DNA of 64,000 nt from Clostridia bacterium. Lineage in GTDB: Bacteria > Bacillota > Clostridia > Oscillospirales > CAG-272. The stretch spans positions 1 through 64,000 of the forward strand of contig JAFTRY010000031.1 in the NCBI GenBank assembly GCA_017462035.1. The letters are read 5' to 3'. The translations under genes and the position numbers were made by a program. Under the pieces are notes generated by a model that saw nothing but the letters and a program-made list of their open reading frames with translations, searched no databases and was not told the DNA's origin. This document shows, one piece after another, positions 10,698-50,659 of the stretch (position 1 is the first letter of the stretch; each line of letters opens with the position of its first letter).

Positions 10698-10775
10698 AAG
10701 TCCGTCGAAGGACATGGAAATCCTCCCAACCATCCACCCGAAGGTGCTCGTATGAACCTTCGGGTGAGACTTTTC
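10698..10775 (+). repeat. Dispersed mosaic repeat, copy G (partial)
   Basis: Only the segment GTCCGTCGAAGGAC and the ACCCGAAGGT (10736-10745)/ACCTTCGGGT (10756-10765) palindrome are present, without the GC-rich module or tandem units. From 10776 to 10925 I see nothing else. Confidence 0.8.
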
Positions 10776-11340: not shown

Positions 11341-11375
11341 GACAAAAGTAACGCAAAGGTACTTTTGTCATTTTT
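11341..11375 (+). terminator. Terminator after the Cys-rich micro-protein
   Basis: GACAAAAGTA (11341-11350) and TACTTTTGTC (11360-11369) form a stem followed by ATTTTT. From 11376 to 11451 nothing is recognised. Confidence 0.7.
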
Positions 11376-11451
11376 ATATCAAAAGTACTTTTGTTTCTCG
11401 TTGTGGCTCGGTCATGCTCCAAGTACTGACTTGATGAAGGACAATGAGCAG

Positions 11452-11805
11452 GACGTGCCCCTTTCCTACCGGTTGGTGAATGGTCTTGATGTCTTCGACA
11501 ACTGCAATCCCCCACACCAACCACCCGAAGGTGTTCGTATGAACCTTCGGGTGAGACTTGCTCCATAGCAACGCCTCCCCGACGCATGAGGCGGCGGGGA
11601 TGTAGGGGGGATTTTCAAGGGGGAACGCCTTGAAAACGCTTTCTTCGCCATTCTTTGTCGTTTAACAAAGAATGGCATAAACCTACACCAAAGTAACTTT
11701 ACCATTTTTGGCTGGCGTTCACAGAACGCCCCTACGGGTTTGAGGAAATTTTTCTGTGTTCTTCTTACGGAAAACAAAGGATTACCGAAATATTCTTGCA
11801 AAGCT
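11452..11805 (+). repeat. Dispersed mosaic repeat, copy B
   Basis: Starts with a module resembling one in copies C and E (TACCGGTTGGTGAATGG, then GACAACTGCAATCCCC). The ACCCGAAGGT/ACCTTCGGGT palindrome follows (11523-11552), then the GC-rich module, the CAAAGAATGGC hairpin and one tandem unit. The order is unusual: the GGCGTTCACAGAACGCCCC module (11713) comes last rather than first. The end overlaps TATTCTTGCAAAGCTGTTCT, a short repeat also at 27191. Confidence 0.85.
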
Positions 11806-11852: not shown

Positions 11853-12842
11853 TCAACCGATCTCCCCCTTCCCATTTTCCCAATAGATGGCTTGGGTGCG
11901 GCGAAGGGGATAATGAACCAGCTCCGTCCCCTCCAGATCCTCATGAAAAAGCTGAACGGCATTGATCTGACTGTTCTCGTAGGTCTTGTAATAATAGATC
12001 CCTAAGTCGGTATTGCAACAGGAGGAATACTGGGTCCGCTCACACCCTTTGCCTGTCCGTACACACCCCTCTACCTGGGAAACCATGTCTAAAATATGAA
12101 AAAACTGCCCCACCGACGGAATCTCTTCCCTTGGGATCACCGAATTCCATTTGGCAAAGGATGCCCGAATAAAACGGGATGAGGAGGAAATATCGCCGGG
12201 CAGCCCCAGTGCCCCCATGCCTCGGCTTACAGAACGGAGAGAAAGCCCCGGAGCGAATCGATTCTCCGCCTCTCCCGCGCTCAGATTCATATACTCGTTG
12301 ATATGCTCCAGATGGTAGGGAAAGGGGGGATTGTTGGTGAGAACACCCATGGGATCGTCCCAAACCAGTACTCCCTCTGCTGTCGCCTCCAATACAGCCG
12401 ACTCCTCTCGGTCCGCGATCAGCCAATGGAGCTCCGCCAGAGGGATGTCCTCCCGAACGGGAAGGTTCAACAGAGAAAGGCGGGATAAAAGTTCCCGCGC
12501 CTCGGAAACGGTTCGGCAGGTTCCTAAAAGCCGAGGGATCAGCTCGTAAGGGGTCAGATTCTCCTTGCCCGCCGTGAGAGGGCGGTAGACCGCATTCCCC
12601 ACGAAGTTTAATCCGGCGACACTCAGCCCATACTCGTTGGTGCCGTCAAAATAAAGAGGATAGCCCTCCAACAGCGTCGCCATGCCCAGAAAGGCAAAAT
12701 GACGGAAATCGGTTTCCCCCGCCCGATAGGGAAGGGGAAAATTTCTCGGGGTCACGGTTACCTCCTCCCCAAAAGTACTCTCCCAATCTAAATTTCTTCC
12801 AAAATAATGATGCTTTCCGTGAAAGTCCAAAGCGGTACACAT
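11853..12842 (-). CDS. Choloylglycine hydrolase family (bile salt hydrolase / penicillin V acylase-like)
   Basis: A 329-aa N-terminal-nucleophile amidase, the family that deconjugates bile salts or opens penicillin V. Choosing the ATG at 12842 puts Cys at position 2 (MCTALDFHGKHHYFGRNLDWE), the expected nucleophile after Met removal; GGAGAGC precedes it. Arg16 and Asp19 match the catalytic Arg/Asp. Later motifs are TNEYGLSVAGLNF, LTNNPPFPYHLEHINEY and LPGDISSSSRFIRASFAKW, all close to known bile salt hydrolases. No signal peptide, so cytoplasmic. It is divergent from the rhamnosidase operon. Substrate choice between bile salts and N-acyl amides cannot be settled here. Confidence 0.9.
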   Translation of the reverse strand: MCTALDFHGKHHYFGRNLDWESTFGEEVTVTPRNFPLPYRAGETDFRHFAFLGMATLLEGYPLYFDGTNEYGLSVAGLNFVGNAVYRPLTAGKENLTPYELIPRLLGTCRTVSEARELLSRLSLLNLPVREDIPLAELHWLIADREESAVLEATAEGVLVWDDPMGVLTNNPPFPYHLEHINEYMNLSAGEAENRFAPGLSLRSVSRGMGALGLPGDISSSSRFIRASFAKWNSVIPREEIPSVGQFFHILDMVSQVEGCVRTGKGCERTQYSSCCNTDLGIYYYKTYENSQINAVQLFHEDLEGTELVHYPLRRTQAIYWENGKGEIG

Positions 12843-12923
12843 AAGCGCTCTCCTTTTTCTTTTTTTCAGTATGCTCCCCACCAAAAAAACTTATGCAAAT
12901 TCGGGAAAAAACGGGAAAGGTAC

Positions 12924-18757: not shown

Positions 18758-18789
18758 AAAATCACATAAAATGACATTAAAAGACAACA

Positions 18790-19250
18790 AACGTGAGGAG
18801 CTTCTCCCACCAGTTGGTAAACGGTTTTAGCGTCTATAACAACCGCAATACCCCACACCAAAACAACTTTCCCGTTTTTTTGCGGGCGTTCACAGAACGC
18901 CCCTACGGGTTTGAGGAAATTTTTCTGTGTTCTTCTTACGGAAAACAAAGGATTACCGAAAAATTCCGTCCATCGGAATCCACGGCAATCCCACCAACCA
19001 CCCGAAGGTGCTCGTATGAACCTTCGGGTGAGACTTTTTCCATAGCAACGCCTCCCCGACGCATGAAGCGGCGGGGACGCAGGGGGATTTTCAAGGGGGA
19101 ACGCCTTGAAAACGCTTTCTTCGCCATTCTTTGTCGTTTCACAAAGAATGGCATACATCTACACCAAAGTAACTTTACCATTCAGCAAAGAATAGCATAC
19201 ATCTACACCAAAGTAACTTTACCATTCAACAAAGAATGGCATATCTCGCC
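18790..19250 (+). repeat. Dispersed mosaic repeat, copy C (most complete)
   Basis: Modules in order: CAGTTGGTAAACGG...ACAACCGCAAT; GGGCGTTCACAGAACGCCCC hairpin (18884-18903); GGATTACCGAAAAATTCC; GGAATCCACGGCAATCCC; ACCCGAAGGT/ACCTTCGGGT (19000-19029); CCTCCCCGACGC...GCGGCGGGG; TTTTCAAGG...CCTTGAAAA; CCATTCTTTG/CAAAGAATGG; then about two tandem units. It fills the gap between xth and the threonine aldolase gene. No gene is supported in it. Confidence 0.9.
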
Positions 19251-26628: not shown

Positions 26629-27095
26629 AGGGCTTCCTACGGAAAATCAACGATTACCGAAAAATTCCGTCCGTCGAAGGACGAGGAAATCCCCCCACAC
26701 CAACCACCCGAAGGTGTTCGTATGAACCTTCGGGTGAGACTTGCTCCATAGCAAAGCCTCCCCGACGCATGGAGCGGCGGGGACGCAGGGGGATTTTCAA
26801 GGGGGGAACGCCTTGAAAACGCTTTCTTCGCCATTCTTTGTCGTTTAACAAAGAATGGCATACCTTTACACCAAAGTAACCTTACCGTTCAACAAAGAAT
26901 GACATAGAACCAAACTAAAGTAACTTTCCCATTCAACAAAGAATGGCATAAACCTACATCGAAGTAACTTTCCCATTCAACAAAGAATGGCATAAACCCA
27001 CATCGAAGTAACTTTCCCATTCAACAAAGAATGGCATAAACCCACACCAAAGTAATTTTCCCATTCACTAAAGAATGACATAGAACATTACTTTT
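26629..27095 (+). repeat. Dispersed mosaic repeat, copy D, with six tandem units
   Basis: Begins with GGATTACCG-like ACGATTACCGAAAAATTCCG, then the ACCCGAAGGT/ACCTTCGGGT palindrome (26706-26735), the GC-rich module, the CCATTCTTTG/CAAAGAATGG hairpin and tandem units starting at 26849, 26893, 26937, 26981, 27025 and 27068 (period 43-44 bp). It abuts the 201-bp inverted-repeat element. No gene is supported from 26047 to 27300 apart from the RNA. Confidence 0.9.
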
Positions 27096-27300: not shown

Positions 27301-28848
27301 TTATTCAGCGGTCTCCTCAGCGGGAGCTTCCTCGGCAACTTCCTCAGCGGGAGCCTCCTCAACGGGTGCCTCCTCAGCAACTGCCTCAGCGGGAACCTCC
27401 TCAGCGGGAGCCTCCTCGGCAACAGCTTCGGCAGAAACCTCCTCAGCGGGAGCCTCCTCGGCAACTGCCTCAGCGGGAGCTTCCTCAGCGGGAGCCTCTT
27501 CTGCTACGGTTTCCTCGTCGGAACCGTCGTAGATGTAAGCACCGGTGACGATCTCACGGCGACGTTCCGCGCCGCTTGCGGCACACAGGGTCTTGCTCAG
27601 AATCATCATAACGATCTCCAGCGCGAAGAGGAGCACCAGACCTACAACAGCAGCGGTGTAGGCATTCTTGGTATCACCAACCAGCTCCAGCTTGAATTCC
27701 TCATGGTTCATGAGAACAAAGGGAAGAATTGCGGTGATCAGAGCGATCACACCGGTTACGATGTGAGAGTCAGACTTGCTCTTGGACATACAAGCGATGC
27801 GAGTTACGATCTGGCTCAAGTACTTGATCACAACGATGGTGAGAATCACGAACAGAACGGTAATCAGTACGGGAAGGAAGTCGGGCTCATTCTCGGTCTT
27901 GGTTATAGCGGAGCCGATAGCCTCAGCACCCTCCTTTACGGCATAGCTGCCCAGTCTCTTAAAGAGAACGTTCATGATGTCGGACTTGATGATATTGGTG
28001 AAGAAGATCAGGTAAGCAACCAGGCTGCCAACGGATACGATCTGTACGGTGTTCAGATATGTAAAGTCAGCCTTGTCGTAGTACTTCAGACGGGACACAA
28101 CGAGGTTTACGATCAGAGCGGCAACGCACATTCCCAGAATACCGGTTACGGCTCCGCCGAACTGAACCTGGGGAACCATGACCATAACCACCAGCAACAG
28201 GGGGAATACGGAGATGATGCTTCCCAGAGCCTTGGCGATCTTGTGGAATGCCTTGCCGGGATCGTTACGCTTGGTGATGATGGCAATCAGCGCGCGGATA
28301 GCGGCGATAACACAAACCAAGGGCAGAATAAATACTAAGAACATGAGCAACAGATTGCACAGACCGACCATCCAGTGGGTCTTGAAGCTTGCGATGAGAG
28401 CAAAGAAGAACACGATGAAGTTCACCAGATCCTGGGACAAAAGATCTTTGTCTTTGGACTTGTTCTTGGAGTCCTCCAGATCGTTCAGGGCTTCTTCGGC
28501 ATCCTCCAGGTTCTCAGCGTTGTTGAGCTTGTTGACGTTTTCCTGGGTTTCCTTCACGCTGTCAACAGCGGCACTGATCACGTCAGCCAAAGATCCGAAG
28601 GAGCGGATCACAAAGGGAAGGCTTACGTCGATCTTGTCGGGAATCTCGATTTTCTCGTCTCCGCTCTTCATGTCGTTCAACAGGTCGACAACGGAGGCTT
28701 TGGTTTCGGAATCAATGTCTACGTCCATAGAGAAGATGGTTCCGAAGCTGGCAAGTGCCATAACCACGATCAGAACGACACAAACGATGTTCTGGATCAG
28801 AGTCAGCATCTTGCCGGAAAGAATTTTTGCAAGGGCTTTACTGCGCAT
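27301..28848 (-). CDS. Polytopic membrane protein with Glu/Ala/Pro repeat tail
   Basis: A 515-aa protein of unknown function. Residues 17-40 form a first membrane helix (TLIQNIVCVVLIVVMALASF). A polar, partly coiled-coil stretch follows (residues ~45-150, including VKETQENVNKLNNAENLEDAEEALNDLE written in part). Then come about eight more membrane helices. The last ~75 residues are a low-complexity tail of EEAPAEE/AEAVAEE units, encoded by imperfect 24-27 bp DNA repeats. The start is the ATG at 28848 behind AGGAGG; the longer frame has no ribosome site. No family recognised. Confidence 0.8.
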   Translation of the reverse strand: MRSKALAKILSGKMLTLIQNIVCVVLIVVMALASFGTIFSMDVDIDSETKASVVDLLNDMKSGDEKIEIPDKIDVSLPFVIRSFGSLADVISAAVDSVKETQENVNKLNNAENLEDAEEALNDLEDSKNKSKDKDLLSQDLVNFIVFFFALIASFKTHWMVGLCNLLLMFLVFILPLVCVIAAIRALIAIITKRNDPGKAFHKIAKALGSIISVFPLLLVVMVMVPQVQFGGAVTGILGMCVAALIVNLVVSRLKYYDKADFTYLNTVQIVSVGSLVAYLIFFTNIIKSDIMNVLFKRLGSYAVKEGAEAIGSAITKTENEPDFLPVLITVLFVILTIVVIKYLSQIVTRIACMSKSKSDSHIVTGVIALITAILPFVLMNHEEFKLELVGDTKNAYTAAVVGLVLLFALEIVMMILSKTLCAASGAERRREIVTGAYIYDGSDEETVAEEAPAEEAPAEAVAEEAPAEEVSAEAVAEEAPAEEVPAEAVAEEAPVEEAPAEEVAEEAPAEETAE

Positions 28849-28885
28849 GATATGTTTTCCTCCTAATAAAAATTTATACAAAGTA

Positions 28886-30410
<1,525 letters not shown>

Positions 30411-30504: not shown

Positions 30505-30995
30505 GAAATGGGGTAAAATTACTTAGGTATGATTTTATGCTATTCTTTGGTGAACGAGTATGTTACTTTGGTGTAGGTTTTGCTTCGCTCAGGATGGCAC
30601 GGGCATGGACAAGGGATTTTTTCAATATCTCCGTTTTTTTCAATATCTCCGCAGGGGCGTTCTGTGAACGCCCGCCAAAAACGGTAAAATTACTTTAGTG
30701 TGGGTTTTGTGTCATTCTTTGTTGAACGGTAAAGTTACTTCGGTATAGATGTATGCCATTCTTTGTGAAACGACAAAGAATGGCGAAGAAAGCGTTTTCA
30801 AGGCGTTCCCCCTTGAAAATCCCCCTGCGTCCCCGGCGCTTCATGCGCCGGGGAGGCTTTGCTATGGAAAAATCTCACCCGAAGGTTCGTACGAGCACCT
30901 TCGGGTGGTTGGTGTGGGGGATTGCGGTTGTCGAAGACATCGAGACCATCTACCAACCGGTAGGGGAGGGGCACGCAAAAAACGGGAATGTTACT
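30505..30995 (-). repeat. Dispersed mosaic repeat, copy E (minus orientation)
   Basis: Read on the minus strand: GACAACCGCAATCCCC module, ACCCGAAGGT/ACCTTCGGGT palindrome (30877-30906), GC-rich module, CCATTCTTTG hairpin, two tandem units, the GGGCGTTCACAGAACGCCCC hairpin (~30653-30672), a lone TCAGGATGGCACG half of the 201-bp element, and more degenerate tandem units to 30505. Module order differs from copy C. It fills the gap between eno and the metallophosphoesterase gene. Confidence 0.85.
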
Positions 30996-31107
30996 TCGGT
31001 GGGATTGTTGCGGATTTCGATGGACAGAAATGCTTCGATTGCGTATTGTTTTGGGGCAGCGGAACCATACCGTTTTGCGCAAGTTTCTGCTTGTACGTTG
31101 TCAGCGG

Positions 31108-34027: not shown

Positions 34028-34360
34028 TGTGTTTTTTCATTCTCTAGTGAATGGGAAAGTTACTTCGGTATAGATGTATGCCATTCTTTGTTGAACGACA
34101 AAGAATGGCGAAGAAAGCGTTTTCAAGGCGTTCCCCCTTGAAAATCCCCCTGCGTCCCCGCCGCTCCATGCGTCGGGGAGGCTTTGCTATGAAAAAAGTC
34201 TCACCCGAAGGTTCATACGAGCACCTTCGGGTGGTTGGTGGGATTGCCGTGGATTCCGACGGACGGAATTTTTCGGTAATCCTTTGTTTTTTTGTAGGAA
34301 GAACACAGGAAAATTTCCTCAAACCCGTAGGGGCGTTCTGTGAACGCCAGCTCCCGAGAG
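34028..34360 (-). repeat. Dispersed mosaic repeat, copy F (minus orientation)
   Basis: Minus-strand order equals copy C: GGCGTTCACAGAACGCCCC hairpin (~34331-34350), AAATTCCGTCCGTCGGAATC, the ACCCGAAGGT/ACCTTCGGGT palindrome (34203-34232), GC-rich module, CCATTCTTTG hairpin and about one tandem unit. It ends 25 bp from the stop of the next minus-strand gene. Confidence 0.88.
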
Positions 34361-46595: not shown

Positions 46596-46718
46596 ACTGT
46601 AAAACCTTCTGAGGCGTTTTGCAAGGTATGTCGCAACAGGATTCCCGATAGTGCAATGATTCCCCTGTGTGAAGACTGCATTGCGGAAGCGGTGAAGATT
46701 TATAATGAAAGAAAGTAA
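46566..46718 (+). pseudogene. CxxC-rich open frame behind RNA copy 3 (no good start)
   Basis: The open frame ends at TAA 46716-46718 and reads TVKPSEAFCKVCRNRIPDSA then MIPLCEDCIAEAVKIYNERK, two CxxC pairs 14 residues apart as in a zinc ribbon. No ATG lies before the first pair; the only start is a TTG inside the pseudoknot strand. It takes the same place as the Cys-rich micro-protein genes of copies 1 and 2 but is not clearly related in sequence. Possibly a decayed gene. Confidence 0.4.
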
Positions 46719-46721
46719 CGC

Positions 46722-46762
46722 AAAGGTACTTATGGCAAGTGATTTCCATAAGTACCTTTTGT
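46722..46762 (+). terminator. Terminator after cassette 3
   Basis: AAAGGTACTTATGG (46722-46735) and CCATAAGTACCTTTT (46746-46760). The sequence AACGCAAAGGTACTT also opens the terminator of cassette 1 (11350), a further sign of shared origin. After it, 46786-46811 holds a lone CGCTCAGGGTGACACG half-repeat. Confidence 0.75.
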
Positions 46763-46870: not shown

Positions 46871-47030
46871 GGGGGTAAAAGGACAGCTTGAACCTGTTTC
46901 GCTTACGCTCAGCGGCAAGTTTGTTTTGACGGACATCGTCCGTCATTTGCTTCGCAAACCGCCAAACATTGCCTTCACCGAGGAACCCCGACCAGAACCT
47001 GAGGGTAATGTCACCTCGGTGAAAGATTTA
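46871..47030 (-). repeat. tRNA-Leu 3' half remnant, interrupted
   Basis: On the plus strand GGGTAAAAGGAC-AGC-TTGAACCT (46873-46895) is the 3' end of the tRNA-Leu complement. About 76 bp of unrelated sequence follows, then CCTTCACCGAGGAACCCCG and CCAGAACCTGA (46972-47002), one mismatch from the tRNA. The flank GGGTAATGTCACCTCGGTGAAAG also resembles that at 48400. Confidence 0.7.
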
Positions 47031-48345: not shown

Positions 48346-48399
48346 TGGTTCGGGTAAAAGGACTTGAACCTTCACCGAGGAACCCCGACTAGAACCTGA
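48346..48399 (-). repeat. tRNA-Leu 3' half, direct repeat of the intact tRNA
   Basis: 49 bp (48351-48399) are identical to the 3' half of the tRNA-Leu at 50425-50473, from the acceptor end to the anticodon loop. Including TGGT (the CCA complement) the match is 53 of 54. This is the classic footprint of an integrative element that used the tRNA gene as attachment site. No integrase gene lies between. Confidence 0.85.
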
Positions 48400-48492
48400 T
48401 GGTAACGTCACCTTGGTGAAAGGTTTTTCTACACCCTTTTTATATCAATCATAGATAGCATAAAAGGTGAAGAAAATCAAGTATATTTGGCA

Positions 48493-50419: not shown

Positions 50420-50506
50420 TGGTGCGGGTAAAAGGACTTGAACCTTCACCGAGGAACCCCGACTAGAACCTGAATCTAGCGCGTCTGCCAATTCCGCCAT
50501 ACCCGC
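50420..50506 (-). tRNA. tRNA-Leu (CAG), CCA encoded
   Basis: Acceptor GCGGGTA/TACCCGC, D arm GGCGGAATTGGCAGACGC, anticodon stem-loop CTAGA-TTCAGGT-TCTAG with anticodon CAG, a long type II variable arm (CGGGGTTCCTCGGTG) and T arm GGTTCAAGTCC, then ACCA. The 3' half is duplicated at 48346-48399. Transcription probably comes from the promoter at 50660-50688, through a broken second copy. Confidence 0.95.
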
Positions 50507-50569
50507 GTATTGAGTTTTTGCTGTTAATTTTTACACGAAGCAGCTCTTCGAGGACGGGGCAACTAAAAT

Positions 50570-50634
50570 CAAGAACCGTTCACCAAGGTGTCGTTACCTG
50601 AAACTAGCGCGTCTGCCAATTCCGCCATACCCGC
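50570..50634 (-). pseudogene. tRNA-Leu pseudogene (intact 5' half only)
   Basis: The first 38 nt (50634 down to 50597) match the neighbouring tRNA-Leu through the anticodon (GCGGGTATGGCGG...GCTAGTTTCAGG). After the anticodon the sequence becomes TAACGACACCTTGGTGAACGG, which cannot form the anticodon or acceptor stem. That continuation resembles the flanks at 48400 and 47003 in the opposite orientation relative to the tRNA halves. Confidence 0.8.
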
Positions 50635-50659
50635 ATATTGTTCTTACCGAACGGATAAT

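Follow-up and report, generated by a model that had tools for sequence, protein, structure and literature searches.

The repeat copy under study is located at positions 18785–19243, on the plus strand, of the window, i.e. the whole stretch of 64,000 nucleotides that was analysed, which lies on contig C17 of a 1.74 Mb MAG, 86% complete (host genome, G000). According to the module map and the sequence, the copy consists of modules Z, a remnant of G, A, B, C, D, E, F, G and G, and is a dimer with an internal deletion. It folds 7.7 SD better than shuffled sequences. Module A (18886–18913) is a GTAG-tagged REP hairpin, read on the minus strand as GTAG-GGGCGTTC-TGT-GAACGCCC, in which GTAG adjoins an 8-bp stem with a 3-nt loop; GTAG REPs are defined by GTAG next to a stem of 5–13 bp with a short loop, in a survey that mentions no Firmicutes, and the likeness to them is confined to this module (PMC3733652). 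Relatives carry compensatory versions of the stem, GGGCGAAC/GTTCGCCC and GGGCGATC/GATCGCCC, at loci that were fetched by this motif. Module A is a REP independent of the core.

The core of the copy is formed by modules C to F, four hairpins designated P1 to P4, on the plus strand. P1 (module C, 18999–19030), CACCCGAAGGT...ACCTTCGGGTG, differs in sequence in the relatives yet still pairs; P2 (module D, 19050–19079) is GC-rich and is supported by the fold and by the relatives; P3 (module E, 19091–19109) reads TCAAGG-GGGAACG-CCTTGA, and P4 (module F, 19123–19152) has the loop CGTTTC. The strand AAACG that follows P3 (19110–19114) pairs with CGTTT in the P4 loop (19135–19139), forming a pseudoknot; P3, P4 and this helix are supported by covariation. 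The copy ends with two 44-bp G units in tandem, both containing a partial hairpin of P4 type (19153–19243; module map).

The other window copies were delimited with the module map. On the plus strand, the copy at 1381–1842 (core 1481–1644) consists of the remainder of A followed by B-C-D-E-F-G(n), the one at 10726–10774 is a solo module C (P1 only), the one at about 11464–11795 (core 11515–11679) is a head-to-tail dimer, Z-C-D-E-F-G-A-B, with the second unit truncated after B, and the one at 26633–27082 (core 26698–26862) reads B-C-D-E-F-G(5). On the minus strand, the copy at 30512–31065 (core 30752–30914) has B- and Z-like arms, C-D-E-F-G-G-A and a degenerate G tail, and that at 34038–34351 (core 34077–34240) reads A-B-C-D-E-F-G. 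In agreement with the first-pass annotation, the seven window loci exist and have the named modules in common according to the module map, and both the module C count given below and the fold of the copy under study lie far outside what chance would give; the loci are present in both orientations (five plus, two minus), and none overlaps a called gene. The locus placed by that annotation at 1–1850 holds a copy at 1381–1842, while 15–1380 is an insertion sequence that split module A. It was inserted in the module A hairpin, has an rve-type transposase (ORF 113–1255) and is accompanied on both sides by a 5-bp CACAG duplication (10–14 and 1381–1385).

Additional features of the window are a choloylglycine (bile salt) hydrolase family gene (11853–12884) that adjoins a repeat copy, a gene for a 541-aa protein without Pfam match (27301–28926) that contains 15/12-bp tandem repeats, and a separate repeat of hairpin character (AAAGTAACGCAAAGGTACTT...; 11345–11392 and 46712–46759) unmatched by the element models. 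A tRNA-Leu gene and nearby partial repeats of its sequence are found at 50420–50640, 46972–47029 and 48369–48426, and the partial repeats are possibly attachment-site-like remnants of an integrative element.

Unit plan and copies in the host genome

Alignment of module probes to 428 kb of the host genome yielded about 30 loci, with the unit plan (Z or A-B)-C-D-E-F-G(n) in the same order and on a single strand within each copy. Variation is limited to module A, to the 5' arm, which is Z or B, and to how many 44-bp G units are present (one to five or more). The shuffled module order previously proposed is contradicted by this constancy, and the terminal A-B of a copy described as having its first module last opens a second unit joined head-to-tail. 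Dimers of the form Z-C-D-E-F-G-A-B-C-D-E-F-G occur at several host loci, complete at C18:36736–37394 and C18:22108–22741 and truncated at others, including 11464–11795 and the copy under study. Since A is preceded by a partial G unit at most loci, it was taken as a marker of the junction between units. The differences in G-unit number and the truncation of dimers are probably due to recombination between repeats. The size of the element in the host loci ranges from about 25 to 660 bp, instead of the approximately 80 to 490 bp first reported.

The genome-wide count suggested as a check gave 26 copies of module C in the host genome versus 0 for a reversed-pattern control. Of these copies, 22 are on three contigs (C11, C17 and C18) that represent 19% of the assembly; contamination was rejected as the cause of this clustering, the tetranucleotide composition of the repeat-rich contigs being within normal variation. 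Contig C18 terminates within an element copy. Per-column identity of the core copies is about 92%, in an alignment that includes one diverged copy, and the amplification in the host thus looks recent. The host copies show no constant ends, which upholds the earlier statement that the repeat is unlike a simple MITE.

Covariation, pseudoknot and base-pair composition of the core

In 35 distinct P3–P4 sequences, 97.5% of the cells pair and 18 of 21 pairs show double changes; the covariation score was 0.632, versus 0.085–0.164 with the partners slid. The pseudoknot between the P3–P4 linker and the P4 loop was first seen by eye and is absent from the covariance models. Complementarity of at least 4 bp was found in 25 of 30 distinct linker/loop combinations (6.6 expected; 0 of 20,000 permutations), the permutations leaving relatedness in and about twenty different helix sequences occurring. 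A larger set, which includes the sequences of the first, gave 44 of 66 (9.4 expected), and order-level matches outside the model training set gave 24 of 41 (3.4 expected). The helix is AAACG/CGTTT in the host, and GGAA, GACA, CGTG, GGACG, CGAAT and others in relatives. At one host locus (L070:4991–5154; G000 C11:44991–45154) the P4 loop reads TTGAACGA versus the usual TCGTTCAA, i.e. it is inverted, breaking the pseudoknot. In the relatives G083 and G185, a second hairpin repeat sits between P3 and P4 (L119:6143–6298 and L233:15159–15317), and the syntenic positions differ.

Across many genera, modules C-D-E-F are kept together as a single co-linear structure, the core, with its covarying pseudoknot. 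The recombining hairpin modules of the first-pass annotation are therefore upheld as to their hairpin nature but not as to their independence within the core.

Among 207 distinct copies, P3 showed 7 G-U and 7 A-C in 1193 cells, and P4 showed 44 G-U, mostly at two columns, and 3 A-C in 2261 cells. Twenty-two tRNAs of the same loci had 46 G-U in 481 pairs; these pairs were obtained from ARAGORN, which marks allowed pairs only, so that its A-C count is meaningless. The host genome's own copies gave 16 G-U versus 6 A-C cells, corresponding to few independent events. Where both DNA strands have to form the structure, G-U pairs are expected to be rare; the counts over the 207 copies are indirect evidence and fit an element that would fold as DNA, on both strands.

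Distribution and head-to-head pairs in relatives

Two covariance models were used, R1 for the core C-F and R2, smaller, for P3-P4. R1 matches full-length homologues in other genera, in which the sequences differ and the four hairpins are kept. R2 matches 38 of 394 genomes and 26 of 168 genera of the order, which belongs to the Clostridia and is probably Oscillospirales; in a 398-genome sample of the phylum, at a stricter E-value, the only matches were the window genome and a single further genome, likewise from the order, with none outside it. Copy number is very unequal between genomes and reaches at least 150 in some relatives, including G185. The related MAGs derive from gut and rumen samples. 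No similar DNA was detected in plasmids (query, a window copy) or phages (query, a g55 copy). Neither in the window nor in the sampled relatives did any Rfam 15 family reach its gathering score at the element, and no relevant weak match was found; a literature search limited to open-licence papers retrieved no description of the element. The element, a miniature interspersed repeat, would constitute a large, apparently uncatalogued family.

In the genus g55, sampled as 466 kb of three genomes in regions picked partly for containing matches, 64 of 75 close neighbours are arranged head-to-head, with gaps clustering near 97, 200, 283 and 330 nt. The ends were classified as type a (P3 loop GGGAACG), type b (ATTAG-like) or unclassified. 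With typing rules fixed after inspecting examples, 33 of the 64 pairs were a+b (15.4 expected), none was a+a or b+b, and the others include an unclassified end. Similarity between the two halves of a pair is lower than between randomly paired copies (0.657 vs 0.692). Past P4, a P5 hairpin is common to many g55 copies, as is a tail resembling GTAGAAGAAGTTGT. Head-to-head pairs in other families have gaps of 124–330 nt, mostly about 285–296. In family f14 the ends share ACGCTCC/GGAGCGT inverted termini; elsewhere they are structured but not sequence-identical. One pair in G083 is missing from the syntenic spacer of G185, which is a different species, with flanks too diverged for a clean empty site. 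No clear target-site duplication was observed around ten pairs, and no ORF-bearing (autonomous) pair was present in the 466 kb of g55 sequence. As in MITEs, the element is short, multi-copy and without an ORF.

No head-to-head pairs were found in the host-genome sequence examined, which showed only single units and head-to-tail dimers. The P3 loop of the host is of type a; on the basis of this loop and of the absence of pairs, the host copies were called solo ends.

A search for the Y1/RAYT transposase (PF01797) was negative in the 86%-complete host genome and in seven of nine relatives, including G185 with its at least 150 copies. Y1/RAYT was consequently discarded as the general mobiliser.

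Interpretation and comparison with known repeats

The favoured reading, with a probability of about 0.6, is that the window repeats are copies of one end of a mobile DNA element, non-autonomous and REPIN/MITE-like, whose ends carry a pseudoknot. The full element, as in the relatives, would be of about 0.4–0.65 kb, with two different ends in inverted, head-to-head arrangement, each comprising P3, a linker pairing with the P4 loop, P4 and often P5 and a terminal motif. Such pairs would move as DNA, and a candidate enzyme acting in trans may recognise the ends as folded single strands, by analogy with Y1/RAYT on REP and IS200 hairpins. In the host, the one end type seen would have multiplied as single units and head-to-tail dimers, the second end being presumably lost; where two units meet, the GTAG-REP (module A) would have been acquired, and the 44-bp tail unit would have been amplified. 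Ordinary recombination between direct repeats may then have given the truncated forms taken for shuffled modules. The reading is favoured by the constant module order and the dimers, the covarying stems and pseudoknot, the multi-copy distribution over the order, the head-to-head pairing of unlike ends, the locus present in one species and absent from another, and the rarity of G-U pairs. Counting against it are the searches for a target-site duplication, an autonomous copy and a mobilising transposase, which gave none, the diverged flanks of the presence/absence locus, the negative Y1 results in the host and seven of nine relatives, and the amplification of a solo end in the host, where no pairs were seen.

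The main rival, considered unlikely, holds that the repeats are many copies of a structured RNA that serves the host as an attenuator, an mRNA-stability element or a small RNA. Conservation of a pseudoknot and of stems is typical of functional RNA, and 11 of 23 host copies are located downstream of a co-directional gene and face a convergent one. On the other hand, copies were found in all gene arrangements, five of them between divergent genes, G-U pairs fall far below their frequency in tRNAs and, in P3, are no more frequent than A-C, copy number differs greatly among genomes, and inverted pairs place one sense and one antisense structure on each strand. Lower still is the probability assigned to a BOX-like composite MITE moved by an ordinary DDE insertion sequence whose terminal repeats match those of the MITE, in spite of the inverted termini of family f14 and of composite modules and variable tandem units that resemble the boxA-boxB(n)-boxC plan (PMC3049150). 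The window genome shows no constant ends, and the ten pairs inspected gave no target duplication. Moreover, to our knowledge, transposases that recognise double strands do not need conserved pseudoknots in the ends. The view of independent hairpin modules recombining freely, in keeping with module A as an independent REP and with the existence of partial copies, is highly improbable: module order and strand do not change over the approximately 30 loci, which already contradicts it, and the core is conserved as a unit across genera.

In architecture, the mobile element proposed here comes nearest to REPINs/BIMEs, and its tandem units to BOX elements (PMC3116915, PMC3049150). With REPINs/BIMEs it shares high copy number, extragenic location, compensatory changes and predicted single-strand folding (PMC3116915, PMC3733652). 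Their replicative unit is an inverted pair with preferred spacings (PMC3116915, PMC3733652); such pairs were seen in the relatives, and single units and head-to-tail dimers in the window genome. REPs are single hairpins of 20–40 bp, in near-identical halves, with RAYT (PMC3116915, PMC3733652); in contrast, each end described here measures 80–165 nt and contains a pseudoknot, paired halves are of unlike type, and no Y1/RAYT accompanies them in the host or in most relatives. BOX of streptococci, compared by plan only, is likewise interspersed, composite and folded, and its tandem units vary in number; its ends resemble ISSpn2, and the part of the BOX account considered here describes neither a pseudoknot nor inverted pairing of unlike ends (PMC3049150). 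From its description as cited in PMC2267715, bcr1 is a similar multi-copy structured repeat of about 150–170 bp with mobile-element traits, set apart from the order-wide element by being specific to the Bacillus cereus group.

It can be put forward tentatively, as a rather doubtful extension, that the pairs represent an order-wide class of transposable elements with two unlike ends. The enzyme recognising these ends would act on single strands folded into a pseudoknot, and would belong neither to Y1/RAYT nor to the conventional DDE transposases that work on double strands. If true, the ends of this class would be defined by structure and not by sequence. The repeats would constitute a gut-bacterial family with at least 150 copies in some genomes and with ends set by a conserved pseudoknot instead of by sequence. 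The two end types, the fixed spacings and the covariance models are handles for finding the mobilising enzyme, and the element accounts for a class of intergenic repeats able to break assemblies, as at the end of contig C18.
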